Assembly (NCBI GenBank): GCA_900319105.1 | Contig: ONND01000010.1 | Location: 1 to 64,000 of the forward strand | Direction: 5' to 3' | Length of the DNA: 64,000 nt | Source of the DNA: an uncultured Bacteroidales bacterium | Lineage (GTDB): Bacteria > Bacteroidota > Bacteroidia > Bacteroidales > Paludibacteraceae | In this document: piece after piece, positions 4,736 through 63,985 of the stretch | How positions within the stretch are numbered: the stretch's first letter is position 1 | Layout of the letters: each line of letters begins with the position of its first letter | Program-made: the position numbers and the translations under genes | The notes under the pieces: model-generated | Database searches by the model: none | The model's input: only the letters and a program-made list of their open reading frames with translations | Told to the model about the DNA's origin: nothing

Positions 4736-4751
4736 AAATTAAACCAAAATA

Positions 4752-10514: not shown

Positions 10515-10540
10515 TGATTGATGATTGAAGATTGAAGATT
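10513..10540. repeat. 7-bp tandem array at guaD/lplA junction
   Basis: GATGATT twice, then GAAGATT twice, contiguous. The guaD TGA overlaps unit 1 and the TTG start of the ligase gene (10532) lies across units 3 and 4. Confidence 0.9.
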
Positions 10541-14619: not shown

Positions 14620-14641
14620 TAGCTAACGGCTAATGGCTAAA
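14614..14641. repeat. 7-bp tandem array at cdd/lptG junction
   Basis: GGCTAAT, AGCTAAC, GGCTAAT, GGCTAAA. The array contains the cdd TAA (14617-14619) and the ATG of the permease gene (14633-14635). Confidence 0.9.
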
Positions 14642-30478: not shown

Positions 30479-31747
30479 TTAGTCTCTTCTGAAAATATCG
30501 CGGGTGTACACTTTGGCGGCAACGTCGTCAAGGACGGGGTCGTAACGATTGGCGATGATGGCTTGGCTGCGGCTCTTGAAGGCGGCAAGATCGTTCACTA
30601 CGAGAGAGCCGAAGAAGGTTGAGTTGTCCGGCAGAGTGGGCTCGTAGATGATGACTTGCGCACCTTTCGCTTTCACGCGCTTCATGATGCCTTGGATGGA
30701 GGACTGACGAAAATTGTCGCTGTTCGATTTCATCGTCAGGCGATAGACGCCGATAACACAAGGATGCTCCTCGGCGGCGTTGAACTGACCGTTATGGTAG
30801 TAGTCATAGTAGCCTGCTTTCGCCAGAACGCGGTCGGCGATGAAATCCTTACGGGTTCGGTTGCTCTCCACGATTGCTTCGATGAGGTTCTCCGGCACGT
30901 CCTGATAGTTCGCCAGCAGTTGCTTGGTATCTTTCGGCAGGCAGTAGCCGCCATAACCGAACGACGGGTTGTTGTAGTGCGTTCCGATACGCGGGTCGAG
31001 GCACACGCCGTCAATGATGTCCTGCGTGTTCAGACCTTTCATCTCCGCGTAGGTGTCGAGCTCGTTGAAGTAGCTCACGCGCAACGCCAGATAGGTGTTG
31101 GCAAACAACTTGACCGCTTCGGCTTCGGTAGTGCCCATGATACGCACCTCTATGTCCTGCTTGATAGCACCTTCTTTGAGCAGCATAGCGAATCGTTCCG
31201 CTGCGGCTGTCAAGGTGGGATCGCTGAGGCTCGTACCGACGATGATACGAGAGGGGTAGAGGTTGTCGTACAGCGCTTTGCTCTCGCGCAGGAACTCCGG
31301 CGAGAAAAGGATGTGCTCGCAGTTGTATTTCTTGCGAACGGACTCGGTGTAGCCGACGGGAATGGTGGACTTGATGACCATGATCGCTTGCGGGTTGACG
31401 CGGAGGACGGTCTCAATGACGTTCTCCACTGCCGAAGTGTCAAAATAATTCCGCTGGCTGTCGTAGTTCGTCGGTGCGGCTATAACGACATACTCCGCAT
31501 CCTTGTACGCCGCCTCGGCATCCACTGTCGCCGTGAGGTCCAAAAAACTCCCTTGTCCCTTGTCCCTTGTCTCTTTGTCCTTTTCGAGGTATTTCTCGAT
31601 ATACTCGTCTTGGATGGGCGAACGGCGGGAGTTGATCATCTCCACTTTCTCGGGGATGATGTCCACCGCCGTCACCTTATTATGCTGGGCGAGTAGGGTT
31701 GCGATACTCAACCCTACGTAACCCGTTCCTGCTACTGCAATCTTCAT
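30479..31747 (-). CDS. ugd: UDP-glucose 6-dehydrogenase
   Basis: Two-step NAD-dependent oxidation of UDP-glucose to UDP-glucuronate; 422 residues with all three domains. NAD motif GTGYVG at 7-12, [18 protein letters not shown], and catalytic Cys269 in [12 protein letters not shown]. The C-terminal UDP-binding domain has [17 protein letters not shown]. Residues 57-66 (around KETRDKGQG) come from a CCTTGTC array and form a polar insertion before the second strand. Base composition is higher in G+C than the glycosyltransferase genes downstream. Confidence 0.94.
31551..31579. repeat. 7-bp tandem array inside ugd
   Basis: CCTTGTC three times, then TCTTTGTC, contiguous and translated. Confidence 0.85.
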
Positions 31748-32775: not shown

Positions 32776-32794
32776 AAGTTAAAAACTATAATTT

Positions 32795-33000: not shown

Positions 33001-36000
33001 ATGAAACAATTTAAACTTTGGAATACGCTTTGCGGATGGGTGGTATTTGCCATCGCAGCGGCAACGTATCTCCTTACGATGGAGCCCACCGCTTCCTTCT
33101 GGGATTGCGGCGAGTTCATCTCCAGCGCCTGGAAATTGGACGTTGGACACCCGCCCGGAGCACCGTTCTTCATGCTCATGGGCCATTTCTTTAGTCTGTT
33201 TGCGTCTGACACAGCGCACGTAGCCATGTGCGTGAATGCGCTGTCAGCACTCGCGAGTGCGTTCACGATCCTCTTCCTTTTCTGGACGATCACAGCGCTG
33301 GCGAGGAAGTTAGTAAAACCCCTCCCGACCTCCACACAAGGGGAGGAGAAGAATTCGCTGTGGGCGGATTTGGGCATTCTCGGAGCAGGGACAGTAGGTG
33401 CGCTGGCATACACGTTCAGCGACACGTTCTGGTTCTCCGCCGTCGAGGGTGAGGTGTATGCCTCGTCGTCGCTCTTCACCGCCGTCGTGTTCTGGCTCAT
33501 CCTCAAATGGGACGAACAGGCGGACGAGGAAGGATCGGACAAGTGGCTTATCCTTATCATGTACCTCATGGGCCTCAGTATTGGTGTCCACCTGCTGAAC
33601 TTGCTGACCATCCCTGCCATCGGACTCGTTTATTACTTCCGTAAATACGAATTCAGCTGGAAGGGACTTATCTATGCGTTCCTCGCTTCGTGTGCGGTTC
33701 TGCTGGTTATCCTGTATGGTATCATTCCGGGCGTACCTACCTTGATCGGTTGGTTCGAACTGGCGTTCGTCAACGGCCTCGGTTGTCCGTTCAATACGGG
33801 TCTCGCGGTGTCGATCGTGCTCATCGTCGGTTTCCTGGTGTGGGCTATATGGTACACGCGCAAGAAAGAGTGGCGCTGGGCGAACACGGCAGCAATCATG
33901 GTGGCGATGATCCTTATCGGTTACAGTTCGTACGCTGCACTCGTCATCCGTTCGAATGCGGACACTCCGATGGACCAGAACAGCCCGGATAATGTGTTCT
34001 CCCTCAAGTACTACCTCAACCGCGAGCAGTACGGCGACCGTCCGCTTTTCTACGGACAGACCTACAACGCGCCCGTAGAACTGGAGATCAAGGGTAATAT
34101 GTGCATCCCGGTGGAGAACATAGGCCATGCGCAGTACGCTCCGGCTCCGAAAGTGGAGGGCGAGAAAGACCATTACGTCGTAACCGGACATAAGACCAGC
34201 TACAAATTTATGCCGCAGTTCTGCATGCTCTTCCCGCGTATGTATTCGTCGCAGGGCAGCCATGTGCAGGCTTACAAAGAGTGGGCGAACGTCAAAGGCA
34301 AACGCGTCAAATATGACTATTGCGGTCAGACCAAGACGGACTACTGCCCGACTTTCGGCGAGAACCTGCGTTTCTTCTTCCGCTACCAGGTGAACTTCAT
34401 GTACTGGCGCTATTTCATGTGGAATTTCGTTGGTCGTCAGAATGACCTGCAGTCGTACGGCGAGATCACCAAGGGTAATTGGATCTCGGGTATTCCGTTC
34501 ATCGATAACGCCATGCTTGGCGATCAGGACCTGCTGCCGACCGAACTGAAGGAGAATAAGGGCCATAACGTCTATTATTTCCTGCCGTTGCTGCTCGGCC
34601 TCATCGGTATTGTATGGCAAGTGTCGAAGCGTGACAAGGACGGCAAGGCAGAGGGTTGGAAGAACTTCACCCTGACGTTCCTGCTGTTCTTCCTCACGGG
34701 TCTGGCGATCGTGATGTACCTCAACCAGACGCCTTACCAGCCGCGTGAACGAGACTACGCGTATGCAGGTTCGTTCTATGCGTTCTGTATCTGGATCGGT
34801 CTGGGCGTTTTGGCATTGATTGATTGGATCAATGGACAATGGACAAAGGACAAAGGACAATGGATTAAAAATACCATAGCTGTTGTTGTTTCTGTTGTTT
34901 GCCTCGGAGTGCCGGCGCTGATGGCATCGCAGAACTGGGACGATCACGACCGCTCGCAGCGGTACTCCTGCCGTGACTTCGGCGCGAACTACCTCAAGTC
35001 CTGCGAGTCGCAAGCGATCCTCTTCTCCAACGGCGATAACGATACCTTCCCCCTCTGGTACAATCAGGAAGTAGAGGAGGTCGGCACGGATATCCGTGTA
35101 TGTAACCTCTCGTACCTGCAGACCGATTGGTATATCTCGCAGATGAAGCGTCCGTACTACGAATCCAAAGCACTTCCTATCTCCTGGGAGTACAAGGATT
35201 TCATGCCGGGTAAGAATGAGATCGCCCGCGTCGATAACCGTCTTGGTCAGCCCATCAGCGTAGAGAAAGCCTTCAACTTCCTCTGCTCGGAGGACTCCCG
35301 AACGAAGACCCGCGAAGGCGATAACTACATCCCCTCCGACCAACTCTATATCGAGACGCCGGCCGGCGAACAGATACTCTTTAAAAAGAAGCGCATGTAC
35401 ACGCGCTCGGAGATGATGATCATGGAGATGCTCTCTACCAATAAATGGCAGCGACCCATCTATTTCTGCGCGACCGTGGGTAATGACTATTACCTCGGCC
35501 TTGAGCCCTACATGGAACTCACAGGCCTCGCTTATCAGATCACTCCGACCCGTAGCCGCGACGGACAGCCGCGCGTCAACACGGAGAAGATGTACGATAA
35601 CATGATGCATAAGTTCCAGTTCGGTAACATGAACATCCCGGGTATCTATATCGACGAGAACCTGATGCGTATGTGCCGCACCCATCGTATGATGTTTGCC
35701 CAGCTCGCGGAACAACTGCTGCGCGAGAACCAACGCGACAAAGCGCTCGAAGTACTCGACTATGCCGAGGAACAACTGCCGGGCTATAACATCTCCTACG
35801 ACTATACTTCGGCGTCTATGGCTTCGATGTATTTCGCACTGGGTGAGAAAGAGAAAGCCGAAGCAATCATGGAGAAGGTGGCGCAGAGCTGCGTTGAGTA
35901 CCTGCGTTTTGCTGCCTCCCTCAATCGCGCGCAGAAGCGTTCGCTTGAGTCCTCCACAGGCCGTGAGGCGGCTATCCTCGGATACGTGCTGCAGTCCTGC

Positions 36001-36066
36001 GAACGCAACGGCGCGAACGACATCGTTGATAAATACTATCAGGACTATGCGACGTACGCTAAATAA
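33001..36066 (+). CDS. DUF2723 (GT117-like) membrane glycosyltransferase
   Basis: 1021-residue GT-C type protein. An N-terminal half with about twelve helices starts TYLLTMEPTASFWDCGEFI, where the acidic cluster is the likely active site; GHPPGAPFF-type VGHPPGAPFFMLMG follows. The C-terminal soluble half ends in helical TPR-like segments. The family is nearly restricted to Bacteroidetes and is related to protein O-mannosyltransferases. Two low-complexity insertions are visible: residues 107-116 from a CCTCCC/GGGAGG palindrome, and 612-621 from a GGACAAA heptamer array just before a membrane helix. Divergent from the glycan cluster. Confidence 0.93.
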   Translation: MKQFKLWNTLCGWVVFAIAAATYLLTMEPTASFWDCGEFISSAWKLDVGHPPGAPFFMLMGHFFSLFASDTAHVAMCVNALSALASAFTILFLFWTITALARKLVKPLPTSTQGEEKNSLWADLGILGAGTVGALAYTFSDTFWFSAVEGEVYASSSLFTAVVFWLILKWDEQADEEGSDKWLILIMYLMGLSIGVHLLNLLTIPAIGLVYYFRKYEFSWKGLIYAFLASCAVLLVILYGIIPGVPTLIGWFELAFVNGLGCPFNTGLAVSIVLIVGFLVWAIWYTRKKEWRWANTAAIMVAMILIGYSSYAALVIRSNADTPMDQNSPDNVFSLKYYLNREQYGDRPLFYGQTYNAPVELEIKGNMCIPVENIGHAQYAPAPKVEGEKDHYVVTGHKTSYKFMPQFCMLFPRMYSSQGSHVQAYKEWANVKGKRVKYDYCGQTKTDYCPTFGENLRFFFRYQVNFMYWRYFMWNFVGRQNDLQSYGEITKGNWISGIPFIDNAMLGDQDLLPTELKENKGHNVYYFLPLLLGLIGIVWQVSKRDKDGKAEGWKNFTLTFLLFFLTGLAIVMYLNQTPYQPRERDYAYAGSFYAFCIWIGLGVLALIDWINGQWTKDKGQWIKNTIAVVVSVVCLGVPALMASQNWDDHDRSQRYSCRDFGANYLKSCESQAILFSNGDNDTFPLWYNQEVEEVGTDIRVCNLSYLQTDWYISQMKRPYYESKALPISWEYKDFMPGKNEIARVDNRLGQPISVEKAFNFLCSEDSRTKTREGDNYIPSDQLYIETPAGEQILFKKKRMYTRSEMMIMEMLSTNKWQRPIYFCATVGNDYYLGLEPYMELTGLAYQITPTRSRDGQPRVNTEKMYDNMMHKFQFGNMNIPGIYIDENLMRMCRTHRMMFAQLAEQLLRENQRDKALEVLDYAEEQLPGYNISYDYTSASMASMYFALGEKEKAEAIMEKVAQSCVEYLRFAASLNRAQKRSLESSTGREAAILGYVLQSCERNGANDIVDKYYQDYATYAK
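34834..34861. repeat. 7-bp tandem array inside DUF2723 gene
   Basis: GGACAAT, GGACAAA, GGACAAA, GGACAAT, contiguous. It encodes a polar loop containing GQWTKDKGQW. Confidence 0.88.
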
Positions 36067-36091
36067 CAAACAACAAACTACAAATGACAAC
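36064..36091. repeat. 7-bp tandem array at DUF2723/cobW junction
   Basis: TAACAAA, CAACAAA, CTACAAA, TGACAAC. It includes the stop TAA (36064-36066) and the next ATG (36084-36086). Confidence 0.85.
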
Positions 36092-38983: not shown

Positions 38984-39655
38984 ATGACCCCCATGGTAAA
39001 TAGTAAGTGGTTTGGCTATTCGTTTCTGGCGTTCGGCTTGCTGATTCAGGTCGTAACATACCTCATCTCGAATTCCCTCAACCCCTATTCGCTCATTCAT
39101 CTCTCGCTCATCAGCGGCTGTCTGGGCGTTTTCTCGGTCGTACTCACGGCACAGGGAAATATATGGATGTACCTCTTTGGCTTTGCGCAGGTAATCACCT
39201 ATACCATCCTCTGTTTCCAGCAGCGTTTCTATGCCGAGATAGCCATCAATGCCTATTATTTCCTGACGATGGTTTATGGCGTGTATGCTTGGCGTAAACG
39301 CCTGAACGCCGACGCTTCTACTATCTCTCCGCGCAACCTCACATGGAAGGCCGTAGTGCTCATCGCCGTTGCTACGGTCATCGGCGCATGGCTGGTAGGA
39401 TGGGGATTAGCGGCGTGGACAGATGATACGCAGCCTTACCTGGATGCCTATACAACAGTACCTGCACTTGTGGCGCAGGTACTGATGATTCTTGTCTATC
39501 GCGAGCATTGGTTCATATGGCTCGCCGTGGATCTGTTTAGTGTCGTTCTATGGCTTCGTGCCGGTGATTATTGTCTGGCAGCGTTGTACGCTTTCTGGTG
39601 TTTGAACTGCCTCTACGGCCTTTACCGCTGGAAATCCCTAACCACTAACCCCTAA
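38984..39655 (+). CDS. pnuC: Nicotinamide riboside transporter PnuC
   Basis: Facilitated uptake of nicotinamide riboside for NAD synthesis; 223 residues, seven predicted helices. LLIQVVTYLISN, FGFAQVITYTILCFQQRFYAE (in parts), NAYYFLTMVYGVYAWRKR, and the late WFIWLAVDLFSVVLW plus LYAFWCLNCLYGLYRWK are the PnuC hallmarks. The final codons and stop fall inside a 12-unit heptamer array. ATG at 38984 directly follows the upstream stop; 38993 is an alternative start. Confidence 0.92.
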   Translation: MTPMVNSKWFGYSFLAFGLLIQVVTYLISNSLNPYSLIHLSLISGCLGVFSVVLTAQGNIWMYLFGFAQVITYTILCFQQRFYAEIAINAYYFLTMVYGVYAWRKRLNADASTISPRNLTWKAVVLIAVATVIGAWLVGWGLAAWTDDTQPYLDAYTTVPALVAQVLMILVYREHWFIWLAVDLFSVVLWLRAGDYCLAALYAFWCLNCLYGLYRWKSLTTNP

Positions 39656-39720
39656 CCGTACACCATACACCGTACACCGTACACCGTACACCGTACACCG
39701 TACACCGTACACCATACACC
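39637..39720. repeat. Twelve-unit 7-bp tandem array, pnuC/DUF4837 junction
   Basis: Exactly 84 bp: CCTAACC, ACTAACC, CCTAACC, then nine RTACACC units. It starts inside pnuC, contains its stop, and ends at the base before the stop codon of the convergent gene. It is the longest array in the window. Confidence 0.97.
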
Positions 39721-40758
39721 TTACTCCTTCTCATTCGGCATCTTCAGGGTATAGAGGATCGCCTCCATCTGGCGCATGGCATTGCGTTTCTTCTGACCTG
39801 CAGCGTAGAGGAACGCCTCGGCGGTCACTATGCGGCCGTTCACTTGATCCAGTCTCGTCAGGCTGACGAAAGGACCACCCATCGCTTCTCCGTTCATAAT
39901 CTTCCATAGGCCGCGTGTCTCCATCGCATAGAAACCGCCTACTGTGTCCCGCAACGCCGCTACACTACGCGTCACAGGCGGGAAATGCTTGTACTCCGTG
40001 CCCATATAACTGCCCTCCACTTGTGCGGTCACCAGCTTGCCCATCACCGTATTACGCATCGCGATAATAGAGTCGTTGCTGAACTGTTCCTGCGCCGTGT
40101 ACGGGTAACTATAGACCACTACATCCTTGCGCATCGGACCTTTGTTGTTGCAGCACCACAGGACATTTACCATTTTGCCATTTACCATGTTGTCATTTAC
40201 TTTCAGAGTGGTATCCATAATGAGCATGTAGTCCTCAGGAATCAATATATCATAGCCCTGTTTGTTAAGTATCGCACGCGCGTCCTTATTCGTATTCGCG
40301 CGATAGAAGCGGATCTGACGGGCTAACTCTTCCTGTACAAACCACTCGCGGATGCGTCCGCCGTTCGTCTGCCAGTACGCTAATAAATCCTCCTCACTCG
40401 GCGCCTGAATACGGATCATCGCCTGAGGTTTGGACCATACATCACGCGATTTGGTGGTCTTCACCTGAGTGTATTTATGCTCGTTGATATCAATAAGCAG
40501 GATATTACGCGAAGCCTTGAAGAGGTCATCGAACTGATTGACAGGCACATGCGAGGTCGTAAAGGTCGCTTCCATCTGGGGCAGGCCATACATGTCAGCA
40601 CGCATCGTGTCGCAAAGGGCTTTCGATACACTCGACGGACTCACCACGATGCACTCGTAGATAGACCCCGTGGCGGAAGTTAACAAACGATCGGTGCTCT
40701 TTCCGCAACCCATCATTACCAGCGCTAATAGCGAAATAAAGATACTCTTTTTCATCAT
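39721..40758 (-). CDS. DUF4837 family lipoprotein
   Basis: 345 residues. Lipobox LALVMMGCGK, mature Cys about 18. The body matches the Bacteroidetes DUF4837 family: early AxGSIYECIVV, a central helical part, IPEDYMLIMDTTLKV, and the ending WKIMNGEAMGGPFVSLTRLD. Periplasmic or outer-membrane lipoprotein of unknown function. Residues about 185-199 (VNDNMVNGKMVN) come from a TTTACCA/TTTGCCA array. Two adjacent ATGs serve as start. It has its own promoter. Confidence 0.88.
   Translation of the reverse strand: MMKKSIFISLLALVMMGCGKSTDRLLTSATGSIYECIVVSPSSVSKALCDTMRADMYGLPQMEATFTTSHVPVNQFDDLFKASRNILLIDINEHKYTQVKTTKSRDVWSKPQAMIRIQAPSEEDLLAYWQTNGGRIREWFVQEELARQIRFYRANTNKDARAILNKQGYDILIPEDYMLIMDTTLKVNDNMVNGKMVNVLWCCNNKGPMRKDVVVYSYPYTAQEQFSNDSIIAMRNTVMGKLVTAQVEGSYMGTEYKHFPPVTRSVAALRDTVGGFYAMETRGLWKIMNGEAMGGPFVSLTRLDQVNGRIVTAEAFLYAAGQKKRNAMRQMEAILYTLKMPNEKE
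40161..40202. repeat. 7-8-bp tandem array inside DUF4837 gene
   Basis: TTTACCA, TTTTGCCA, TTTACCA, TGTTGTCA, TTTACTT in register with the reading frame. Confidence 0.7.
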
Positions 40759-41796: not shown

Positions 41797-41831
41797 ATGT
41801 ACAATTTACAATGTACAATTTACAATGTACA
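41797..41831. repeat. 7-bp tandem array after AraC terminator
   Basis: ATGTACA, ATTTACA, ATGTACA, ATTTACA, ATGTACA: five perfect alternating units immediately after the terminator T-run. Confidence 0.93.
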
Positions 41832-41910
41832 AAGGGGTCTTGGGGTTTGGTACAAGGTTTTAAGATACGTACTTTCTATCAAGTTAGTACCAAAGTCACC
41901 AGAACGCTTT

Positions 41911-41938
41911 ATTAATTGTTAATTATTAATTGTTAATT
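41911..41938. repeat. 7-bp tandem array before glyA stop
   Basis: ATTAATT, GTTAATT, ATTAATT, GTTAATT, contiguous. Confidence 0.9.
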
Positions 41939-43926: not shown

Positions 43927-45118
43927 TATGACTCCTATTTTTCAAAACTACCTCACTCAAAACGACATCAACGGCTATCTGACTGCCCTGCATAAAGAAG
44001 CCGAAAACGGAGATGCCGGTTCACTACGAATCTTACTCTACCTATCCGTAATGGTATCCGAGGTGGAGGATGCGATGGACTACGTCGATAAACTCATGAA
44101 TATCGAAGACGACTATGTCTTTGCCGTATGGCCATATCTGTCCGCCGCCATCAACGAACTGAACGAGGAGCTCGGTACGTGTGACGACGACGAGAAGTAC
44201 AAATACGCCCTCGGGGCGAAGTTCAAGACTGCCCTCAACACCGGCGACATGGAGTATGAGAAAGAGCATCCCGATTTCAAGTCCCCCTTCCGGCTCTTTG
44301 GCGACAAAATCATTATTTTGCAGCGCGCGTACCTTAATCATGTAGGCAAGCAGACCTATCCCGTGATAGACGACAGCGTGGCGATGAAGCCCTGCGCGCC
44401 GAAGGAGAAGATTGACTACTGGTACAGCCTGTACCGCCGTAGTGACTGCTCGGCAAACCAGGAGACTATTTATAACGACGCCAAACCTTATGCCGAGCAG
44501 GGTGACCCCGATGCGATGCTTGTAGTAGGTTACCTGCTCGCCCACGGCATAGAGACCAAATACGACAGCCCGCGCGTTATTATCCTTCGCGCCAACCCGA
44601 ATTTTGCGCTGCCATTCCTCCGCCGCGCCGCAGACGCCGGACGACCGCTCGCCTGCTCCGAGACGGCTTTCATCCTATATGACCAAGCCAAAGAGCATCC
44701 CGAATACAGAGAACTCGCGGACCAATATCTGGAGAAAGGTGCTTCCTTGAAAGACAAGAACTCACTCCTCAAACTCTTCAACTACTATGAGGACAAAGAC
44801 GATGCCAAAGCTTTTGCGTACCTCGTTCCCCTCGCCGAAGTGTATGACACGCATGAGTACGACCTTGAGCTCGCCTATTGGTACGAGAAAGGCCGCGGCT
44901 GCGAGAAGGACGAGAAGAAGGCCTTCGAGCTCGTCGAATATGTATGGAAGAACTCCTCCGCCAGCCCTTACGACAGCAGTCAGGAGGATTCCGTCAGTAT
45001 GCTCTGCCGCTATCTGCGCGAAGGTATCGGATGCGAGAAAGACCCTGAGCGCGCAGAAAAAATCGCCCGTTGGTACCAAGATGACGAAGACCGGATGTTG
45101 GAAATGCTAACCAGGTAA
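43922..45118 (+). CDS. Sel1-like repeat protein
   Basis: 398 residues, no signal peptide, strongly acidic. Helical Sel1/TPR-like repeats are visible through the C-terminal 220 residues (GDPDAMLVVGYLLAHG, LAYWYEKGRGCEKDEKKAFELV, LREGIGCEKDPERAEKIARWY in parts). The N-terminal 170 residues are helical and less repetitive. Such proteins act as protein-interaction scaffolds and are often found beside toxin or immunity genes. The stop is the first part of a heptamer array that holds the next start. Confidence 0.85.
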   Translation: MNMTPIFQNYLTQNDINGYLTALHKEAENGDAGSLRILLYLSVMVSEVEDAMDYVDKLMNIEDDYVFAVWPYLSAAINELNEELGTCDDDEKYKYALGAKFKTALNTGDMEYEKEHPDFKSPFRLFGDKIIILQRAYLNHVGKQTYPVIDDSVAMKPCAPKEKIDYWYSLYRRSDCSANQETIYNDAKPYAEQGDPDAMLVVGYLLAHGIETKYDSPRVIILRANPNFALPFLRRAADAGRPLACSETAFILYDQAKEHPEYRELADQYLEKGASLKDKNSLLKLFNYYEDKDDAKAFAYLVPLAEVYDTHEYDLELAYWYEKGRGCEKDEKKAFELVEYVWKNSSASPYDSSQEDSVSMLCRYLREGIGCEKDPERAEKIARWYQDDEDRMLEMLTR

Positions 45119-45137
45119 TTGAGAATTGAGAATTATG
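45117..45137. repeat. 7-bp tandem array at Sel1/helical-paralog junction
   Basis: AATTGAG, AATTGAG, AATTATG. The last unit ends with the ATG start (45135-45137); the Sel1 stop overlaps the first. Confidence 0.87.
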
Positions 45138-45592: not shown

Positions 45593-45620
45593 GTGAAAAA
45601 TGAAAAGTGAAAAATGAAAA
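45593..45620. repeat. 7-bp tandem array before the large exported gene
   Basis: GTGAAAA, ATGAAAA, GTGAAAA, ATGAAAA, contiguous, ending 16 bases before the ATG at 45637. Confidence 0.92.
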
Positions 45621-48693: not shown

Positions 48694-48728
48694 CTTTAGA
48701 CTTTAAACTTTCAACTTTCAACTATCAT
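48694..48728. repeat. 7-bp tandem array between the last two cluster genes
   Basis: CTTTAGA, CTTTAAA, CTTTCAA, CTTTCAA, CTATCAT, ending at the base before the ATG (48729). Confidence 0.92.
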
Positions 48729-49052: not shown

Positions 49053-51407
49053 CTACTTCTCCAAGAGCCAATTGATAGATCGGCGGTAGAGTTGATCGAA
49101 ATCGAGCGCTGCCTCAATCGGGAAGCCAAAGACGAGAGTTCTTCGGTTTTCTGATGCGGAGGTCCCTCCGGGTAGGAATGCGACAGCAGCGGGCACACGC
49201 ATATCTTCGTACGCCGCCCATCGGATAGCCTCTTTCTCCGGCTTCAATCCCTGCGGATTGGCGGTGAAGAGATGGGCGTCGTTGGGCGCGAGGGAGAGAT
49301 GGAAACGTGGCGAAGGAACCCGTCCTCCGGGCGTTAACGGTTGTGCCGGCGAAGGGTTAAGACGTACCTTACCGCTACGCGTGGCATGCGCCGCGTAATA
49401 CGAGGCATGGAGGGTTCGTTTCGCCCATGCCGGATCGATTGCATCGAAATGGTCTGTACTGAGCAGCAGTCGTCCTCCGGCGGCTACATGGCTCTCGATG
49501 AAGCGCATGGCGGCATCCGAGAGCGGACGGCGTTGACGACCGCAGATGAAATCGAGGAGTATTGGCTGTTGGCTATTAGCTATTGGCTGTTGGTCAGTGA
49601 GCATACCGGCTGTACAGGAGACATAAGAGAGGTTCATCTGTCGCAGGACGCCGCCGTGCTGGGCAGACCAGTCATGGGTATTACCGACAGTGAACTGTCC
49701 CGCATGATCGCGATAGCACGATCCCCATCCGCAGTTATCATCATTGAGCCATAGATCTGTACGGAGGAAATTCCATTGCTCGCCGATATAGGCGCAGGAG
49801 AAATAGTCCTCGCAGGCATAACTGCCCGGCACGATCCCAGCGTAGGTACTATCCGCAAACCAGTCCGGACCATACACGTCGTTGAAAGCATCCACGATAA
49901 GGACCGGCTTCGCCTGCTGGCTGTTAGCTGTTGGCTGTTGGCTATTAGCGGACAGATAGGCGCTGATGGTAGGCGAGGGGAGGGAGAGACCGCCGTCATT
50001 GCCTGCTACCACATAATAGTCGTACTTCACGCCGGGCTGGAGTTGCAGTTTCAAAGAGGTGGCTTTCTCGACCTGCTGTACATCCCACTCGCCTTCGTCT
50101 GCACGGATATAAACCATGTAATACGAAGGGGTTGCGCTCTGCTCCAATGAATCCAGACAAGGCTTCCATTCCATCACCGCGTTGGAGTTTTGGTCCGTTG
50201 TGTTTGTGATCCGGATGCCGAGATCCTGTACCGGCAGAGGTTGCACGATCGCATTTGCTCCATTGATGTATCGCAGGATGCCCTTATAGACAGCCCTCGC
50301 TGCGACGAACCGGAAATGCGGGTCGAGACCGTAGCGCATATCCGCCATGTTCTTATGGCTGAGCAGCTCGAGGATGATACTCGGCACAACAGGCACGCGG
50401 CTCTCGCAGTAGTTAGCTTCCTTGAGTTGGCGTCTCGTCCATTCGGGCGCCAGGGTACGCAGGTCACTGGTCAGTTGGGTCTGGATCCAGTCGGCAAGGT
50501 TACGATTGGTCTTCTCCCGATCGCGTCCGTCGCGTAGGGTGAGGTGTCCGTCATCGTCCTTGGCAGTGTAGATAACGAGCGTGCCGACGATCGTCGAGTC
50601 ATCGCCGCTATCGAGTCCGTCCGTGTGGAGGGCTACGCATAGATCCACGGGTTGATCCAAGGCATTGATCCACATAGCCCGACATTTCATGTCGTCCTTG
50701 TATTCATCCCCTTCGTATAGATCCCATAAGGTCGAATCTACGCCCTGTGTCTGCAGCCAATAGCGTGCTCCTTCGGTCCATTGCGGCATACCGGATCGTC
50801 CGGGCTGCTGATTATCCAGTCCGGCACGCGGCATCAGTACCGTTGCGCCGGCGTTCTCTAACATCTGCTGCACTCGGCGTACGTACTCACGGCTATAGAG
50901 GTCTTCCACCGTGGTCCAGAGGGTTGCCCGCTGCCAGATCCACTCGTCCCGGTCGCGGTTGTAATATAGCCCATGGGAGGGATAGAGCACGATCGTGCGC
51001 TCCGTGAGGTCAGAACACTTATCCCTGCCGCATTTGCCGGGCGCCTTGATCCCCTCACGTGCACACTCCGTGATGAGGGTTGAGATATCGGTATTGGCGC
51101 TGAAGATGGTCACCTTGCCGTTCTCATGACCAAGCACCCAGCGGCTGACTTTCTGCTTGAGAGTGGTGAGGCTCTCCGGCGTCCAGCGGTAGTCCCGCAG
51201 GGTGGTATTGGTATAAAGGGTGATCCGGTCTCCGTTCACGCGCATGTTCTTTACCCTCACGGTCGGTGACCATAGGGTAGAGAAACCGGTATAGGCCATC
51301 AGCGAGTCGCCTAACTCCTTCATCCCGATTTGGGCGTAGGCAGGACCAAAGAGCGCTTCGCTCAAGGACAATAGACAAAAGACAATAATGAACTTAGAAA
51401 TCCGCAT
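49053..51407 (-). CDS. Exported N-acetylmuramoyl-L-alanine amidase-like / Fn3 protein
   Basis: 784 residues; signal peptide ends near PAYAQ. The Amidase_3-type fold (about 125-375) includes IVLYPSHGLYYNRD (first metal His region), HTDGLDSGDDS (second His) and SIILELLSHKN (Glu). An Fn3 domain (about 395-475) and a C-terminal beta/alpha domain with PVLIVDAFNDVYGPDWF follow, as in Bacteroidales proteins named xanthan lyase or golvesin-like. Probably acts on peptidoglycan in the periplasm. Heptamer arrays encode residues 486-497 and 605-616 (ANSQQP repeats) and part of the signal peptide. The start overlaps the upstream gene by 14 bases. Confidence 0.82.
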   Translation of the reverse strand: MRISKFIIVFCLLSLSEALFGPAYAQIGMKELGDSLMAYTGFSTLWSPTVRVKNMRVNGDRITLYTNTTLRDYRWTPESLTTLKQKVSRWVLGHENGKVTIFSANTDISTLITECAREGIKAPGKCGRDKCSDLTERTIVLYPSHGLYYNRDRDEWIWQRATLWTTVEDLYSREYVRRVQQMLENAGATVLMPRAGLDNQQPGRSGMPQWTEGARYWLQTQGVDSTLWDLYEGDEYKDDMKCRAMWINALDQPVDLCVALHTDGLDSGDDSTIVGTLVIYTAKDDDGHLTLRDGRDREKTNRNLADWIQTQLTSDLRTLAPEWTRRQLKEANYCESRVPVVPSIILELLSHKNMADMRYGLDPHFRFVAARAVYKGILRYINGANAIVQPLPVQDLGIRITNTTDQNSNAVMEWKPCLDSLEQSATPSYYMVYIRADEGEWDVQQVEKATSLKLQLQPGVKYDYYVVAGNDGGLSLPSPTISAYLSANSQQPTANSQQAKPVLIVDAFNDVYGPDWFADSTYAGIVPGSYACEDYFSCAYIGEQWNFLRTDLWLNDDNCGWGSCYRDHAGQFTVGNTHDWSAQHGGVLRQMNLSYVSCTAGMLTDQQPIANSQQPILLDFICGRQRRPLSDAAMRFIESHVAAGGRLLLSTDHFDAIDPAWAKRTLHASYYAAHATRSGKVRLNPSPAQPLTPGGRVPSPRFHLSLAPNDAHLFTANPQGLKPEKEAIRWAAYEDMRVPAAVAFLPGGTSASENRRTLVFGFPIEAALDFDQLYRRSINWLLEK
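49561..49595. repeat. 7-bp tandem array inside amidase gene (1)
   Basis: ATTGGCT, GTTGGCT, ATTAGCT, ATTGGCT, GTTGGTC: 35 bp, translated as DQQPIANSQQPI. Confidence 0.93.
49916..49950. repeat. 7-bp tandem array inside amidase gene (2)
   Basis: GCTGGCT, GTTAGCT, GTTGGCT, GTTGGCT, ATTAGCG: same word family as the other array in this gene, 321 bp away. Confidence 0.93.
51365..51385. repeat. 7-bp tandem array in amidase signal peptide
   Basis: AGGACAA, TAGACAA, AAGACAA. In the coding (minus) direction it gives the hydrophobic run VFCLLSLS. Confidence 0.8.
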
Positions 51408-51963: not shown

Positions 51964-52857
51964 TTATATTTTGATTTTAAATTTACGATTGACGGGCCGT
52001 ACGCGGTACCCGGCTTTACGGAGTTGCTCAATCAGCCCTTTGTCTCCGCCAATATAGATGGCGTTGAGGGTGATGAAGGCTCCGCCTTTGGCGATGTGTG
52101 GCGCAAGGCGTTTGACCCATTGTTCATTGCGCTGACAAAAGACCTTGTAATCCGAGAAGGAGATCGACGAGGTGTTATTCGGTCCTTCTACCTGGAAGGC
52201 TATATCGGTGAGTTGTCCATTGCGGTACAGATCGCGAATAGCGCGTTCCTGCTTGACCTCGTTCTCGGGGTACTCCATGACCTTGAGCAGCTCCTTGCAT
52301 TGCCAGTGGAAAGGCTCGCGGTCAAAGAGCATATACATTGTCTCGCCGATATTATCCAGTCCGATGACGGGAATATTCCTCTCGGCTGCTACCTGCTCGA
52401 AGAAAGTCTCCATCGATCGCTGCTCGTTATAGTGCAACCAAATCTTCATCAATTCGGTTCGATAGAGCTCCGTGAGGTACGAGGGTTTCATGCGGCATAG
52501 TTGTTCAAAAGTCATGCCCAGAGTAACGCGAAGGCTGTTGTCGATAAACGTATACTCCTTTTCGCTATAGAAATTGCTCAGTTTAACAGAGTCGGGCAGG
52601 AGAGCAGCTTTGCGCAATGCAGCGATTGCTTCGTAGTCCTGCATCGCAAATTCCGTGACTACTTTTTTGCACTTCCCGAAGCACTTGAATACATTCGGAA
52701 TGGTGTCTAAAAAACTCATATCCACGTACCGGTTTGTCGCCAGAAGATACGATTTGCCCTTACTGGACTTGCCGCTGATCTCGTAGAGAACCTGAGCGGA
52801 TGTACAAAGGTACAAAGTACAAAGTACAAAGGTTACTATGTATCGGAAGGGTCTCAT
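51964..52857 (-). CDS. TraB/GumN family protein, catalytically degenerate
   Basis: 297 residues, exported. The TraB/GumN (Tiki/PrgY-related) fold is clear: VLYEISGKSSKGKSYLLATNRY, the long helical middle, FCQRNEQWVKRLAPHI and GGDKGLIEQLRKAGYRV. The hallmark GT.H motif reads ATNR and the later GA.H motif reads NAIY, so both metal-binding His residues of the metalloprotease family are missing. Hence it is probably not an active protease. The signal-peptide core is encoded by a TACAAAG array. It overlaps the TPR gene by four bases. Confidence 0.85.
   Translation of the reverse strand: MRPFRYIVTFVLCTLYLCTSAQVLYEISGKSSKGKSYLLATNRYVDMSFLDTIPNVFKCFGKCKKVVTEFAMQDYEAIAALRKAALLPDSVKLSNFYSEKEYTFIDNSLRVTLGMTFEQLCRMKPSYLTELYRTELMKIWLHYNEQRSMETFFEQVAAERNIPVIGLDNIGETMYMLFDREPFHWQCKELLKVMEYPENEVKQERAIRDLYRNGQLTDIAFQVEGPNNTSSISFSDYKVFCQRNEQWVKRLAPHIAKGGAFITLNAIYIGGDKGLIEQLRKAGYRVRPVNRKFKIKI
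52803..52831. repeat. 7-bp tandem array in TraB-like signal peptide
   Basis: TACAAAG four times with one extra G. It codes on the minus strand for the hydrophobic run FVLCTLYLC. Confidence 0.92.
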
Positions 52858-54932
52858 TTGAATCTCGTGATTAAGTTATACGCTTGATAGATACCTAACT
52901 CGCCGGCTTTGCTGAGGTCCGCCAGACCTTTTTCGGTCTCGCCTATATAGACGTAGGTCAGACCGCGATTGAAATAGGCCTCTGCGAAATCCTCATCAAT
53001 AGCAATCGCCTTGGTATAGTTATTAATGGCGTCGTGCCATTCCTTCTGGGCACAGAGGATATTCGCTTTGTTATAGAGCGCGTAGGAGAAATCCGGCCGA
53101 AGTCGGATCACCTGGTCGTAGTCGCGGAGCATGATATCATAGTCCATGGAGCCGGTGACGACCTGCTCTCCCGTTGTGCGTTGGTACTCGAGCAGCCGAT
53201 ATCGCCAGTTAGCGCGGCAGAACGTAGCGAGGATGGTGAGCGACGAGGTGTTGTCTAACATCGACAGGGCGCGGGTACAGTCGTCAATGGCGCTGGTGTA
53301 GTCCTGCACAATCGCAAACTCAATAGCGCGCGCCATGAAGAGCACAGGGTGGGGCATCTCGTCGATCTGATTGGATATACGGGTGATCTCGGAGAAGTGG
53401 AAATCCACCAGCTCTGCCGTGAGCGATACCTCCTGACAGGTCAGTTTGAGGTCCGCCGGCATGATCTGCGCATGATTGATCTGTTCGATCGTCATATGAT
53501 CGTAGTTCGTGCGCCTCAGGCTGCGGTCCTGGGTGTAGTAACTGACAGCTATATTGGGTTCGTTGACGACATCCTGGTAGCGTTTTTGTACCGATCCGCG
53601 GGTCTCGGAGTCGTATTGTTGCTCCTCCTCCGGTATATCCGTTTGGTTTTGTGCCGTAGAGGCGGAGAACTCCTTACGATGGTCTTTCTTCTGCGGTTGG
53701 GCGTCGGCTATCTGAAGATCCGTATTGGGCTGGTTAGCCTGTATCTCATCCTTGCGCTGCTCGAGGTCGTAGGCTTTCTTGCGATAAGCGTACGCCGCCT
53801 TGGTATTGCCTAACTTGGTCTGCGCCTGGGAGGCCATGTAGTACGCCGGCAGGAAATACGGGTAGCGCGCGATGAGTGTATCGAGGTCTCCGATGACCGA
53901 TTTCCATTGTTTGAGTTGCATTTGTACCAGACTGCGTTGGTACCGCATCTCGGTGCGCTCGGGATCCAGACGAATAGCCGTATTAAGGTCCTCCAAGGCG
54001 CGGTTGTAGTCACCTACCTCCTGCCGCATCACACCTCGGTTATAGTAACAATCCGCATCGCGGGGGGATAACTTGACAGCCTGGTCATAGTCGCTCAATG
54101 CTCCGCGGTAATTATGCCGGTGGTAGTGAATGATACCCCGGTTGATGTAGTCGCCTGCCCATTTGGAACCGAGGTTGATCGCCTGAGTCAACTGGACATA
54201 AGCTTCGTCTTCATGTTGGCGCATAAGGTTCGCTACACCGAGAGCTGACCAAACGGCCGGATTGGTCTTGTCGTACTGAGCCGCCTGCTCGAAGGACTCC
54301 ACGGCGCAGAGAGTGTCCTTTTTTAGAATACAGATACGTCCTTTCTCGGTCCATACAGACGATGACTGAGGTTCACGTTTGAGCATCATCTCGATATCCT
54401 CCAGGGCTTCGTCGTACCGTTTGTTCTCGGCGCGTACATCAGCGCGCAGGAGGGTATAGGTGCGGTTCTCCGGTGAGAAACGCAGCGCCTCGGTATAGTC
54501 CGCTTCGGCTTTGTCGTACATGCCTAACATGCGATAGATGTAGCCGCGGGCATAATAGCAACCCGGCGAGAACGGATTACGCTCAATAGCCGAATTGCAA
54601 TCCTTCAAAGCACCCTGATAGTCCTCCAACTGGATTTTGGCAATCGCCCGGAAGAAATAAGGCTCGGAGAGGTACGGCTTGAGTCGGATGACCTGGTTGA
54701 AATATTGGATGGATAGAACATAGTCCTCAAAATACAAGGCATTCCGTCCGATCGCGGTAATGCGGTCGGTATTGAGCTGCGCCTGTGCAGGAGTAAGGAC
54801 AAAGGACAAAGGACTAAGGACTAAAATGAGTCGTAAGATCCATTTTGTCTTTATTCTTTTAGCGAACGCAGCGAGCGGTCTTTGCTCCTTGAGCGAACGT
54901 AGCGAGCGGCCTATTTTACTTACATCCTTCAT
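52854..54932 (-). CDS. Exported TPR repeat protein
   Basis: About 690 residues. Tandem TPRs cover about 65-370 (AIAKIQLEDYQGALKDCNSAIERNPFSPGCYYARGYIYR-type units, seen in parts) and another set near 550-690. A polar linker (about 400-460) separates them. Probable periplasmic or outer-membrane scaffold. The start is uncertain: ATG 54932 is chosen, with 54956 and 54968 as alternatives; all overlap the PBP gene. The N-terminus is odd, a long basic n-region encoded by an AGCGAACG repeat, then a hydrophobic core encoded by an AGGACAA array, then AQAQ. Confidence 0.83.
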   Translation of the reverse strand: MKDVSKIGRSLRSLKEQRPLAAFAKRIKTKWILRLILVLSPLSFVLTPAQAQLNTDRITAIGRNALYFEDYVLSIQYFNQVIRLKPYLSEPYFFRAIAKIQLEDYQGALKDCNSAIERNPFSPGCYYARGYIYRMLGMYDKAEADYTEALRFSPENRTYTLLRADVRAENKRYDEALEDIEMMLKREPQSSSVWTEKGRICILKKDTLCAVESFEQAAQYDKTNPAVWSALGVANLMRQHEDEAYVQLTQAINLGSKWAGDYINRGIIHYHRHNYRGALSDYDQAVKLSPRDADCYYNRGVMRQEVGDYNRALEDLNTAIRLDPERTEMRYQRSLVQMQLKQWKSVIGDLDTLIARYPYFLPAYYMASQAQTKLGNTKAAYAYRKKAYDLEQRKDEIQANQPNTDLQIADAQPQKKDHRKEFSASTAQNQTDIPEEEQQYDSETRGSVQKRYQDVVNEPNIAVSYYTQDRSLRRTNYDHMTIEQINHAQIMPADLKLTCQEVSLTAELVDFHFSEITRISNQIDEMPHPVLFMARAIEFAIVQDYTSAIDDCTRALSMLDNTSSLTILATFCRANWRYRLLEYQRTTGEQVVTGSMDYDIMLRDYDQVIRLRPDFSYALYNKANILCAQKEWHDAINNYTKAIAIDEDFAEAYFNRGLTYVYIGETEKGLADLSKAGELGIYQAYNLITRFK
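54796..54823. repeat. 7-bp tandem array in TPR-protein signal peptide
   Basis: AGGACAA, AGGACAA, AGGACTA, AGGACTA. In the coding direction it gives LVLSPLSFVL. Confidence 0.93.
54857..54912. repeat. GCGAACG..AGCGAGCGG duplicate in TPR-protein start
   Basis: Two copies of a 19-bp unit (AGCGAACGCAGCGAGCGGT and AGCGAACGTAGCGAGCGGC) 34 bp apart, translated as part of the basic n-region. Confidence 0.8.
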
Positions 54933-58277: not shown

Positions 58278-58279
58278 CC

Positions 58280-58314
58280 ACTAACCATTAACCACTAACC
58301 GCTAACCCCTAATC
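58280..58314. repeat. 7-bp tandem array at rarA/hemW junction
   Basis: ACTAACC, ATTAACC, ACTAACC, GCTAACC, CCTAATC. It starts three bases from the hemW ATG and includes the rarA stop. Confidence 0.93.
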
Positions 58315-61141: not shown

Positions 61142-61148
61142 TTCTTAA

Positions 61149-61202
61149 AACTTTAAACTTTCAACTTTCCTACTTCTTTCAACTCTCAACTTTCAACTTA
61201 CT
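61149..61202. repeat. ACTTTCA-type 7-bp array, PorD/recN junction
   Basis: AACTTTA/AACTTTC/CAACTTT units with one off-register break. It overlaps the DUF4835 stop codon. Confidence 0.85.
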
Positions 61203-62121
61203 TTGTAATTCGCTCGTAGGTCTGTTGCCTTGTCGGGTCGATGTCCATTAGGATGTCATAAACTTCTTTCTTCTCTTTGTCCGTTCCTTTGCAGAAGATA
61301 TCCACGAGTTCCTCTGCTTTGGCGTCGAGGAAGGTATTGATGACGTAGGTAGCCGGACGCGAACGGTAGGCCTCCTTGAGAACCGGCAGGCCTTCCGCAA
61401 TGCGCGCGCGACCGTTCGTGACGTTCGCGCTCATCTCGTCCAGACCCAGGCGATGATACTCGTAGTAGAAATTACGGTATTTCTTGAAGGCCTCGTCCAG
61501 GAGGTTATTGATCAGCGCATAGCGGTTTCTGTTGCTCTCAAATGCCAGCCATCCTTTCTGCTCTGTACTTTCCATGGACGAACTCTGGCAGGTCTGACAG
61601 ATCAACTCGCATTGCTGGAAATAGGGCGTGCCGCTCAGGCGCTGGTAACTGTCCTGGTCATGCCCGATGATGAGATAAACATAGTACGCTAACATCGCCG
61701 TCAGGTTCGTCGTGAAGGTATTCTGCTGATACTCGATGCGGTCGTATTCCTCGTAGTGAAAATTGAACGCATTATCCTTGAAGTTCAGCAATGTGGTGGT
61801 GTAGGTCGTGCCATAGACCGGACGACGGCTCTGTAGCGTCATCTCGCATTTGAACATATGATCCACGCTGAGCTCTTTGACCACAATGAGCATACTACAT
61901 TCAATACGCTCTTTCTCGGCGTAGGTCATGTTGGTCCAGCGATTATCGTTCATGTAGCTCTCGATGGACGATTTGAGGGTCTCGAAGATCTGCTTGTTTG
62001 ATCCGTCTATCTGATCCGAGTTGATGCTCACCGTACAGCGTAACTCTTGAGCCTTTAGAGAACTAAAGACCGCTGCGCTCAAGGACAAAAGTCCCAATAC
62101 TATAATCTTAAAACTTTTCAC
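61198..62121 (-). CDS. DUF4835 / PorD-like protein
   Basis: About 308 residues, exported (hydrophobic core IVLGLLSLSAAVFSS, mature part from AQELRCTVSIN). RCTVSINSDQI, NDNRWTNMTYAEKERIECSM and LLNFKDNAFNFHYEEYD (in parts) are the DUF4835 signature. Databases link this family to the type IX secretion protein PorD. No ATG is available; GTG 62121 is chosen, with TTG 62130 as alternative, both in a heptamer array. Located beside recN as in other Bacteroidetes. Confidence 0.87.
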   Translation of the reverse strand: MKSFKIIVLGLLSLSAAVFSSLKAQELRCTVSINSDQIDGSNKQIFETLKSSIESYMNDNRWTNMTYAEKERIECSMLIVVKELSVDHMFKCEMTLQSRRPVYGTTYTTTLLNFKDNAFNFHYEEYDRIEYQQNTFTTNLTAMLAYYVYLIIGHDQDSYQRLSGTPYFQQCELICQTCQSSSMESTEQKGWLAFESNRNRYALINNLLDEAFKKYRNFYYEYHRLGLDEMSANVTNGRARIAEGLPVLKEAYRSRPATYVINTFLDAKAEELVDIFCKGTDKEKKEVYDILMDIDPTRQQTYERITK

Positions 62122-62163
62122 TTCTTTCAACTTTCAACTTCTTTCAACTTTCAACTTTCAACT
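62114..62163. repeat. CTTTCAA-type 7-bp array, DUF4831/DUF4835 junction
   Basis: About seven units of CTTTCAA and variants. It includes the likely non-ATG start of the downstream gene and the stop of the upstream gene. Confidence 0.92.
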
Positions 62164-63199: not shown

Positions 63200-63220
63200 A
63201 TCATTTATTCTTTATCATTT

Positions 63221-63272
63221 AACCACTAACCACTAATCCACTAACCACTAATCCACTAACCACTAATCCACT
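63221..63272. repeat. 7/8-bp tandem array at aroE/DUF4831 junction
   Basis: AACCACT and AATCCACT alternate (7-7-8-7-8-7-8). The last residues of AroE (GLVD) and its stop are read from it. Confidence 0.95.
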
Positions 63273-63985
63273 AACCCATTCCAAATCTTCCATGCGGCTT
63301 TGGCCTGACCGTAGAGCATCTCCATTCCGTTTTGGATAGTAGCTCCTTGCGCCTTGCCCTTGTGGAGGAACAGGGTCTCTTCGGGATTGTAGATACAATC
63401 AAACAGCAAATGTTGTGCCGTAATAAACGCGTAGGGTATATCCGGACAGGCATCAACCTCGGGAAACATTCCCAAAGGCGTACAGTTGACGATGAGAGTA
63501 TGATCCTTCATGATGTCTTCCGTCAGGTCTTTATAACCGAGCATGCAGGCTTGAGGTGTGCGGCTGACGAGGGTAGGGATGACCCCTAATTTGCGAAGCC
63601 CGTAGCACACGGCTTTCGAAGCGCCTCCTGTTCCGAGCACCAAAGCCTTTCTGTCATCGGCACGCAGCAAAGGACGGATTGATTCGATAAAACCTAAACA
63701 GTCCGTGTTATAGCCCACATGTTTATGTACCACATTCACCGCGCCGATTGCCTCGGCGGTCTCATCCAGACGATCCAAGTACGGAATGATGGCCTGCTTG
63801 TAGGGAATCGTTACATTCATTCCGTCCAGATAGTTGAGCAATTCGTTCACTCGTTCAGCCGTTAACTCCTTTAGGGGGTACAAAGAGTATTCGGCATCAA
63901 TGCCTGATGTCGTAAATTTCTCGTTGAAGTATTTCGCCGAGAAGGACTGTACCAACGGATATCCGATTATACCGAAGTGACGCAT
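63263..63985 (-). CDS. aroE: Shikimate dehydrogenase
   Basis: NADPH-dependent reduction of 3-dehydroshikimate in aromatic amino-acid synthesis, 240 residues (short form). Shikimate-binding SFSAKYFN, NVTIPYK with catalytic Lys63, NTDCLGF with the catalytic Asp, cofactor loop GTGGASKAV, and the end QNGMEMLYGQAKAAWKIW. Last gene seen; its promoter would be within the final 15 bases or outside the window. Confidence 0.96.
   Translation of the reverse strand: MRHFGIIGYPLVQSFSAKYFNEKFTTSGIDAEYSLYPLKELTAERVNELLNYLDGMNVTIPYKQAIIPYLDRLDETAEAIGAVNVVHKHVGYNTDCLGFIESIRPLLRADDRKALVLGTGGASKAVCYGLRKLGVIPTLVSRTPQACMLGYKDLTEDIMKDHTLIVNCTPLGMFPEVDACPDIPYAFITAQHLLFDCIYNPEETLFLHKGKAQGATIQNGMEMLYGQAKAAWKIWNGLVD

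Follow-up and report, generated by a model that had tools for sequence, protein, structure and literature searches.

Heptamer repeats in bacterial genomes

Cyanobacterial STRR heptamers occur as several tandem heptanucleotides per genome, and the Rickettsia palindromic elements are short, palindromic repeats, longer than heptamer arrays, that lie in frame inside protein genes. Heptanucleotide LSSRs (Mrazek et al. 2007, cited in PMC4679880 and PMC4692102) are phylogenetically scattered, and the heptamer is the commonest long unit in most of the genomes that carry them; according to excerpts of the two citing papers, slippage related to a 7-nt polymerase contact has already been proposed. TAACTGA direct repeats have been described from marine Beggiatoaceae, Cyanobacteria and five Bacteroidetes (MacGregor 2015, PMC4679880). 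In the excerpted text of that paper the arrays are mostly intergenic, with 24 sets in or overlapping ORFs (one of them in a Bacteroidetes purC), and other heptamers are noted beside the TAACTGA repeats. In Xanthomonas and Nostoc, GGGAATC and GGGGATT heptamers form genome-dispersed arrays that vary in length and sequence among close relatives at the same gene pairs; the intragenic share is 7–11% in two Xanthomonas and about a third in Nostoc, and Calothrix heptanucleotides are also mentioned (excerpts of PMC4692102).

The window analysed here is a stretch of 64,000 nucleotides from an uncultured member of the Paludibacteraceae, and is part of contig 16 of a 2.26-Mb, 30-contig genome. Like the TAACTGA repeats, as far as the excerpts describe them, it contains tandem arrays of heptamers, some of them in genes. 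The main array lies between convergent genes:

39638..39721, strand unassigned: 84-bp array of 12 units, three CTAACCN followed by nine TACACCN, in a single phase

The length and unit number agree with the initial annotation, with the register lying 1 base to the right of the earlier limits. The array had been described as filling the gap between two convergent stops. It does touch the stop of the minus-strand gene (39721-39723), but it also overlaps the 3′ end of the plus-strand gene, the stop of which (39653-39655) is inside the CTAACCN part; this part encodes the C-terminal residues and stop of that gene. The 84-bp array has 27 further matches elsewhere in the genome.

Heptamer arrays of the window

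Thirteen array sites had been named earlier, and each has a period-7 TRF row, some also with 14- or 15-bp rows. The other arrays of the window are given below, none with an assigned strand.

218..247: TTGTACA array in an ORF, encoding 11 residues; its 15+7 register recurs at other loci
6291..6321: ATTTAAG array, in frame in a putative alanyl-tRNA synthetase (AlaRS) gene (4791-7370, plus strand); in other species this stretch has different heptamers or none at all
10507..10541: TGATTGA array between co-directional genes (TRF)
14614..14640: GGCTAAT/AGCTAAC array at a gene junction (TRF)
31549..31580: TCCCTTG array, in frame in a minus-strand ORF
34825..34864: TGGACAA array, in frame in a 1021-aa plus-strand ORF
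36061..36084: weak AAACAAC array at a junction (TRF score 34, the weakest of the 13 sites)
41797..41832: ATGTACA/ATTTACA array in a convergent gap (TRF)
41909..41938: TTATTAA/TTGTTAA array in the same convergent gap (TRF)
45117..45134: AATTGAG array of 18 bp at a junction (TRF)
45593..45620: GTGAAAA/ATGAAAA array at a junction (TRF)
48694..48723: CTTTAAA/CTTTCAA array at a junction (TRF)
49560..49593: TATTGGC array, in frame in a minus-strand ORF, encoding DQQPIANSQQPI
49914..49943: GCTGTTA array, in frame in the same ORF, encoding SQQPTANSQQ
52802..52831: GTACAAA array at the 5′ edge of a minus-strand gene
54789..54824: AGGACTA array, minus-strand ORF, near its start
58278..58312: CTAACCA-type array in a co-directional gap (TRF)
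61144..61199: AACTTTC array with an irregular middle (TRF)
62112..62163: CTTTCAA array in a co-directional gap (TRF)
63220..63276: CTAACCA + CTAATCCA (7+8) array; the 7+8 variant is also found at three other loci (TRF)

Heptamer arrays also adjoin motifs around GACCGCTTCGCT (in relatives, L246 and L249) and GAGCGAACGCAGCGAGCG (window 54847-54909).

The strength of the period was measured by counting runs of at least 10 exact matches at a given lag. The window has 16 lag-7 runs against 0.05 expected (mean of 20 first-order Markov sequences), and no such run at lags 2–6, 8 or 9. A genome sample of 464 kb, made up of 20 stretches and the window, has 60 lag-7 runs against 0.4 expected (5 second-order Markov sets), compared with 7 runs at lag 8, 6 at each of lags 9 and 10, and 18 at lag 11; at longer lags there are 33 (lag 14), 18 (lag 15) and 23 (lag 21). 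The excess of 7 bp over 5, 6, 8 and 9 bp, as checked against Markov sequences, is large in both the window and the 464 kb, so the first refuting condition given with the initial annotation, no such excess, does not hold.

Other tandem repeats are present. Separate period-11 arrays occur at 32793-32841, 57291-57318 and 58040-58062 of the window; lags 11 and 22 exceed chance in the genome, and lag 11 is frequent in relatives. At positions 412-817 a 69-bp unit is present in 5.9 tandem copies, with a higher-order unit of 207 bp, and adjoining 24-bp and 30-bp tandem repeats lie at 18386-18660.

Distribution among related genomes

Relatives identified by a housekeeping protein are uncultured Bacteroidales or Paludibacteraceae, many of them recorded as coming from rumen or gut. 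The genome under study has 129 lag-7 runs per Mb, and values elsewhere are 210 (G110), 202 (G114), 191 (G109), 175 (G117), 150 (G170), 129 (G052), 90 (G050), 70 (G113), 50 (G048), 40 (G175), about 30 (G124) and 0 (G087). When 20 other genera of the family were pooled, 4 lag-7 runs were found in 392 kb, and 20 other families of the order gave 5 in 400 kb, so the background outside the genus is about 10–13 per Mb. A set of 31 loci, drawn from the genus and beyond (470 kb), contains 51 lag-7 runs. About 3 Mb of DNA was covered overall. The lag-7 excess is confined to one genus of the Paludibacteraceae.

Placement relative to genes

For placement, 90 arrays in the 464 kb (TRF period 7 or 14, score at least 36) were compared with uncurated gene calls made from ORFs and codon score, and gaps of 15–600 bp were counted. 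Spacer DNA (58.5 kb) holds 49 of the arrays, 12 are at an edge, and 29 are mostly in coding DNA (405.5 kb); per base they are commoner in spacers, yet about a third are in genes, and 27 are wholly within ORFs. An array is present in 12 of the 31 gaps of the window (10 of 22 co-directional, 2 of 4 convergent and 0 of 5 divergent) and in 44 of 203 gaps of the 464 kb (4 of 21 divergent). The initial annotation had arrays marking most gene junctions, which is wrong given these proportions; about a third of the arrays lie away from junctions. The sites should be termed weakly constrained stretches rather than junctions.

The density of arrays in spacers could reflect a functional element selected at junctions, such as a terminator, a translation-initiation array or a protein-binding array, and start-proximal heptamers have been proposed as regulator sites in Beggiatoaceae (excerpt of PMC4679880). 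Such an element is very unlikely. The arrays wholly inside ORFs and the counts for divergent gaps argue against it, as does the finding that the same junction carries different words in different species. Nor do arrays in co-directional gaps have a strand preference (21 with C>G, 28 with G>C, 1 tie, p = 0.39). This and the arrays inside ORFs leave unsupported an earlier suggestion that a 7-bp periodicity is selected at junctions. The data can be explained without a regulatory role, which is a poor fit to them. A Rho or terminator reading, requiring a C-rich transcript, was rejected on the same strand counts.

Arrays within protein genes

Arrays inside ORFs keep the reading frame and encode seven-residue repeats, e.g., ISNFKFQISNFK. 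The genes that bear them include, as we take them to be from their sequences, those for AlaRS, PrmC, QueA and MurF. In-gene arrays average 2.2 open frames in the coding orientation versus 1.3 on the other strand, while the values for spacer arrays are 1.4 and 1.6; the higher number in the coding orientation is expected under selection against stops.

Two enzymes were followed across species, using for each a set of 30 sequences, own included, that were the best matches among 178 genomes. Lag-7 runs reaching 10 or more matches occur in 16 of the 30 PrmC sequences and in 8 of the 30 AlaRS sequences, and neither set has a run of this length at lags 5, 6, 8 or 9. With a laxer cut-off of 7 matches, lag 8 scores in 13 of 30 PrmC and lag 9 in 15 of 30 AlaRS sequences, and the specificity for lag 7 holds only for 10-match runs, not for 7-match runs. 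In PrmC, the linker preceding VLDxGTG, along with two other stretches, has words that vary by species (AAATTTC, TCAAATA, CAATCAG, GACCAAC, TACACCA and others). A sequence alignment of PrmC to the solved homologue 4dzr has gaps at the first and third of these array stretches. In AlaRS, residues 490-515 are encoded by a run of at least 7 matches in 10 of the 30 sequences, with words such as ATTTAAG, TTGAAAG, TGTACAA, TTCAAAA and TTAAAAA, and form a shorter turn in 10 others.

Similar C-terminal tails of the KVLINGQLFILRG type occur in secreted-looking proteins at window 218-247, L047:6616-6650 and L053:7974-8004, and the linker ahead of such tails is a heptamer array, with differing words.

The relatives are metagenome-assembled genomes or uncultured-bacterium records, and arrays could in principle be an artefact of such assemblies. 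This is extremely improbable, as the arrays keep the frames of conserved enzymes, the assemblies come from several projects, and other genera in the same collection are without the excess.

Word stock and copies at other loci

The genome has 49 unit classes among 87 arrays. Identical units form 70 pairs among these arrays, compared with a mean of 8.2 (maximum 20) when the letters of the units are shuffled. Across genomes, units at separate loci are identical in 2.3% of pairs within genomes, 0.66% between genomes and 0.40% after letter shuffling. After sister genomes were thinned, identical units were found in 96 of 4741 pairs within and 160 of 16669 pairs between genomes; 2000 label shuffles gave a mean of 57.6 and a maximum of 87, none reaching 96. 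With the own genome excluded, 28 within-genome pairs remained against a mean of 15.5, and 3 of the 2000 shuffles were as high. The initial annotation held that this is not one dispersed element. The many words bear this out, but the words do recur, as seen from the identical-unit pairs and from the matches of the 84-bp array. A single dispersed element with fixed ends was rejected, the flanks of same-word arrays sharing nothing when compared by eye.

Arrays were also matched to their own genome, excluding 1.5 kb around each array, and to three sets of DNA from relatives (464, 461 and 442 kb). The best match was better in the own genome for 69, 73 and 51 arrays, worse for 18, 14 and 33, and tied for 3, 3 and 6, respectively; random segments had similar mean matches in the own genome and in the three sets. 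Irregular registers are shared between loci as well. The CTAACCA + CTAATCCA register is found at four loci, as is a 15+7 GTACAA pattern, and an irregular AACTTT block, about 50 bp long, at window 61148-61198 resembles one on another contig (L048:12958-13007). Some of the GTACAA loci appear to encode the mutually similar tails described above for secreted-looking proteins, so homology may account for part of the sharing. Nor is a word always restricted to one genome, since a TACACC-type array is 95.8% identical over 72 bp in two species (L072:6890-6961, and L058:814-885 of the own genome).

These results bear on whether ordinary local slippage is sufficient, that is, whether a chance 7-bp duplication simply grows in place, with no copying between loci. 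The genome-specific words, the 7+8 and 15+7 registers common to several loci and the irregular block similar on two contigs all argue against this, and the better matching of arrays to their own genome than to relatives weakens a reading based on local slippage only. A local process copying seven-base words had been proposed earlier; the copying is supported by changes in steps of 7 or 7+8 (below), but the word local seems too narrow, given the recurrence of irregular blocks and the better matches within the own genome. Because units recur more within than between genomes, arrays seem to be copied between loci in addition to slipping locally.

Alternatively, a transposase-like enzyme might move arrays, along with other small dispersed repeats, into permissive sites. 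Words are dispersed through the genome, an array in one sister species may face a seemingly dispersed sequence at the same site in the other (G109/G114 near 4739 and 6170; G117/G052 near 16449), and mobility has also been considered for the TAACTGA repeats (excerpt of PMC4679880). However, neither conserved ends nor target duplications were seen by eye at the junctions, and the units vary freely, making a mobile element improbable.

Turnover between sister species

Two pairs of sister species, with identities of 94.6% and 95.6% across 59 and 67 kb, were compared at array sites, using both members as source (102 arrays, with mirrored sites counted twice). Fifty-two were dropped, either because a flank was not found (25), was below 90% identity or short (21), or because the array was near an end (6). 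The 50 that could be classified comprise 30 with the same words and length, 9 with changed length, 9 facing other sequence and 2 absent from the sister, so that 20 of the 50 differ by length, absence or replacement. Taken together with PrmC and AlaRS, the sister pairs show that both the words and the lengths of arrays differ across species, so the second refuting condition given earlier, lengths identical among relatives, does not hold either.

Changes in length with the same words were of 7, 15, 27 and 42 bp, and unit number shifts by 7 or 7+8 steps between sister species. The 7-, 15- and 42-bp changes in which the words are conserved are what slippage in place predicts, as are the PrmC arrays of L104 and L105, which are equal in length and differ in phase. 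The nine sites facing other sequence are not, as the array meets unrelated sequence between flanks that are 94.0–99.6% identical within 270 bp on both sides; overall, local slippage as the only process is unlikely. Examples of such swaps, with flanks of 94–98%, are AAATCTC against AGCCATG/AGCCGTC words, AGCCATC against C-rich sequence, and TTGTCCA against ATTTTCTC. At array sites of G117/G052 and G109/G114 (L230-L249), another type of C-rich sequence, with an apparent hairpin (e.g., CCCTCTCCTCAGGAGAGGG), is present in one sister opposite a heptamer array in the other.

One gain could be polarised. In L077, 41 bp stand in place of 5 bp (a 36-bp event) between flanks of 98% identity, and the short form is present in both the sister L076 and the outgroup L071. 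The gained words are GTACTTG, GTACTTG, GTCACTTG and GTACTT, and an array about 400 bp away repeats this word order with 24 of 26 bases matching. Equally good matches occur elsewhere in both genomes, and the best match outside the site, a longer one, is in G110 (score 26 vs 22), so the donor is not fixed.

L076 and L077 are 96.2% identical over 17 kb, where the 4 indels measure 1, 1, 15 and 36 bp and both of the large ones are in arrays; the wider comparison of these two has many more gaps, of all sizes. Indel analysis used the L076/L077 and L064/L068 alignments only, those of L059/L062 and L062/L069 being unusable outside collinear parts. Indel sizes over all sister-pair gaps have no sharp peak at 7, which is partly alignment noise, and for this reason only array sites were classified.

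Homologous recombination between diverged strains, swapping whole alleles while the arrays themselves change slowly, would account for the 30 unchanged arrays and for PrmC of G109/G114, which at 80.6% identity within a 94% region is far more diverged than its surroundings. Some replacements may indeed be allelic exchange with a diverged strain, as suggested by this PrmC sequence. As a general explanation it is hardly probable, since close identity resumes within 270 bp of the nine replaced arrays and flanks the polarised gain.

DNA polymerase I and other candidate enzymes

The Pol I gene of the genome (L041:734-3118, contig 29) is a 795-residue open frame with 5′ nuclease and polymerase domains. 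No PF01612 3′-5′ exonuclease domain was found in Pol I of this genome, G110, G170 or G124. When 71 genomes of the genus were aligned to this domain-less protein, 58 matched in one piece and 9 as two pieces separated by a longer stretch; 2 had another small break, 1 was partial and 1 had no match. None of 57 genomes from other genera aligned in one piece (1 had no match). G190 and G196 retain intact DTET and YxCED motifs, which are absent from G185 and from the 13 genus members that were aligned (5 with a deletion, 8 with a remnant). The five deletion sequences form one group (100/99). When four remnant genus members were scanned, three exceeded the PF01612 cut-off and one fell short of it, as did G185.

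Lag-7 runs number 146 in 1.10 Mb for genomes with the deletion (9 genomes; 5 proteins read, 4 assigned by alignment), 5 in 0.20 Mb for those with a remnant (9 genomes, 8 proteins read) and 4 in 0.41 Mb for other genera, including G185. The rate ratio of deleted to remnant is 5.2, with p = 4e-6 if runs are independent and p = 0.065 per genome. Remnant genomes do not significantly exceed other genera (p = 0.16), and 8 of the 9 are represented by no more than about 23 kb. No run is present in 105 kb of G087 although its motifs are lost, which counts against motif loss alone sufficing, and two deletion genomes have few runs (G124 with 29 per Mb and G150 with 0 in 17 kb). The loss of the Pol I exonuclease accompanies the arrays as a correlation within one lineage; being one clade and hence one event, it is a lead, not proof. 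We know of no report that Burkholderia, Xanthomonas or Nostoc, whose genomes are cited as heptamer-rich in PMC4679880 and PMC4692102, lack the Pol I exonuclease domain. Exonuclease loss may even reduce slippage, T7 and Pol II exo- enzymes slipping less on hairpin templates in vitro (excerpt of PMC4134008).

Two other candidates were rejected: mismatch-repair loss, as MutS is present in 8 of 9 genomes and the exception (G050) is an 81% complete assembly, and loss of the Pol I 5′ nuclease, the domain being present in 9 of 9.

A possible mechanism

On balance, we lean to the view that the arrays are a by-product of a genus-specific mutational regime and not a control element. During gap-filling synthesis the growing end would slip back by about 7 nt and then be extended and, in a rarer step, the slipped end would re-engage on another array of the genome and copy a block. 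Tolerant DNA (spacers, linkers, loops) would thus be overwritten repeatedly with heptamers, with selection keeping constrained DNA clean. The regime may have been opened by decay of the Pol I 3′-5′ exonuclease domain, which would otherwise trim the misaligned end; this is the least certain step. The strongest form of the proposal, in which loss of Pol I proofreading leads to a 7–8 nt slip-and-copy that constantly rewrites all weakly constrained DNA with the genome's own words, spacers and protein loops included, a concerted evolution of heptamers across the whole genome with a repair polymerase as its driver, is doubtful.

A tandem-repeat process that rewrites loops of seemingly essential enzymes bears on how loops and spacers evolve. 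Annotation is also affected, because such arrays could pass for real repeat domains. The genus provides a natural comparison, with the motifs intact in two other genera that were read, lost in early branches, and the domain missing in most members searched. The sister species show change under way, and the candidate enzyme is open to bench testing.

Comparison with known systems

The arrays resemble heptanucleotide LSSRs, as excerpted, in having tandem units (5–11 nt) longer than chance, heptamers as the most abundant unit and a copy number that varies between close relatives. LSSR units whose length is not divisible by three are mainly noncoding in those excerpts; the 90 arrays counted here are denser per base in spacers, with about a third in genes. 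Differences from the LSSRs, to the extent of the same excerpts, are the many words that recur across the own genome, the other words of sister species at fixed sites, and the polymerase without an exonuclease domain.

The TAACTGA repeats have a single fixed word; here that class (AACTGAT) accounts for 1 of 87 arrays, with no dominance. In the BOGUAY genome they are mostly just upstream of starts, and in-gene sets are mostly at protein ends (excerpts of PMC4679880), whereas the present arrays are also found in convergent gaps, at stops, inside ORFs and in the middle of enzymes. Compared with the one G-rich, quadruplex-prone motif type of GGGAATC and GGGGATT (excerpts of PMC4692102), the words here are mixed, and 125 of 234 have no G or no C at all.

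The Rickettsia palindromic elements are similar to the present repeats in being in frame in protein genes, here as heptamer arrays. In phase-variation (contingency) repeats, changes in the repeat turn a gene on or off; the arrays found inside genes here keep the frame. Word swaps between sister species are, to our knowledge, not known for the cyanobacterial STRR heptamers. A limited literature search, mostly of titles, returned none on heptamer word stocks peculiar to a genome, nor on tandem repeats together with a Pol I lacking its exonuclease and, as far as that literature goes, reports of heptamer excess have not shown an enzyme that explains the number seven.

Heptamer LSSRs, the polymerase-contact idea for seven, and variation in length and sequence among relatives are known already, as are in-gene heptamers in Beggiatoaceae, Xanthomonas and Nostoc (excerpts of PMC4679880 and PMC4692102). 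To these, the present genus adds a stock of many words that is largely peculiar to each genome, whole words swapped from one sister species to the next at sites that stay fixed, mid-enzyme arrays, and the loss of a Pol I domain.
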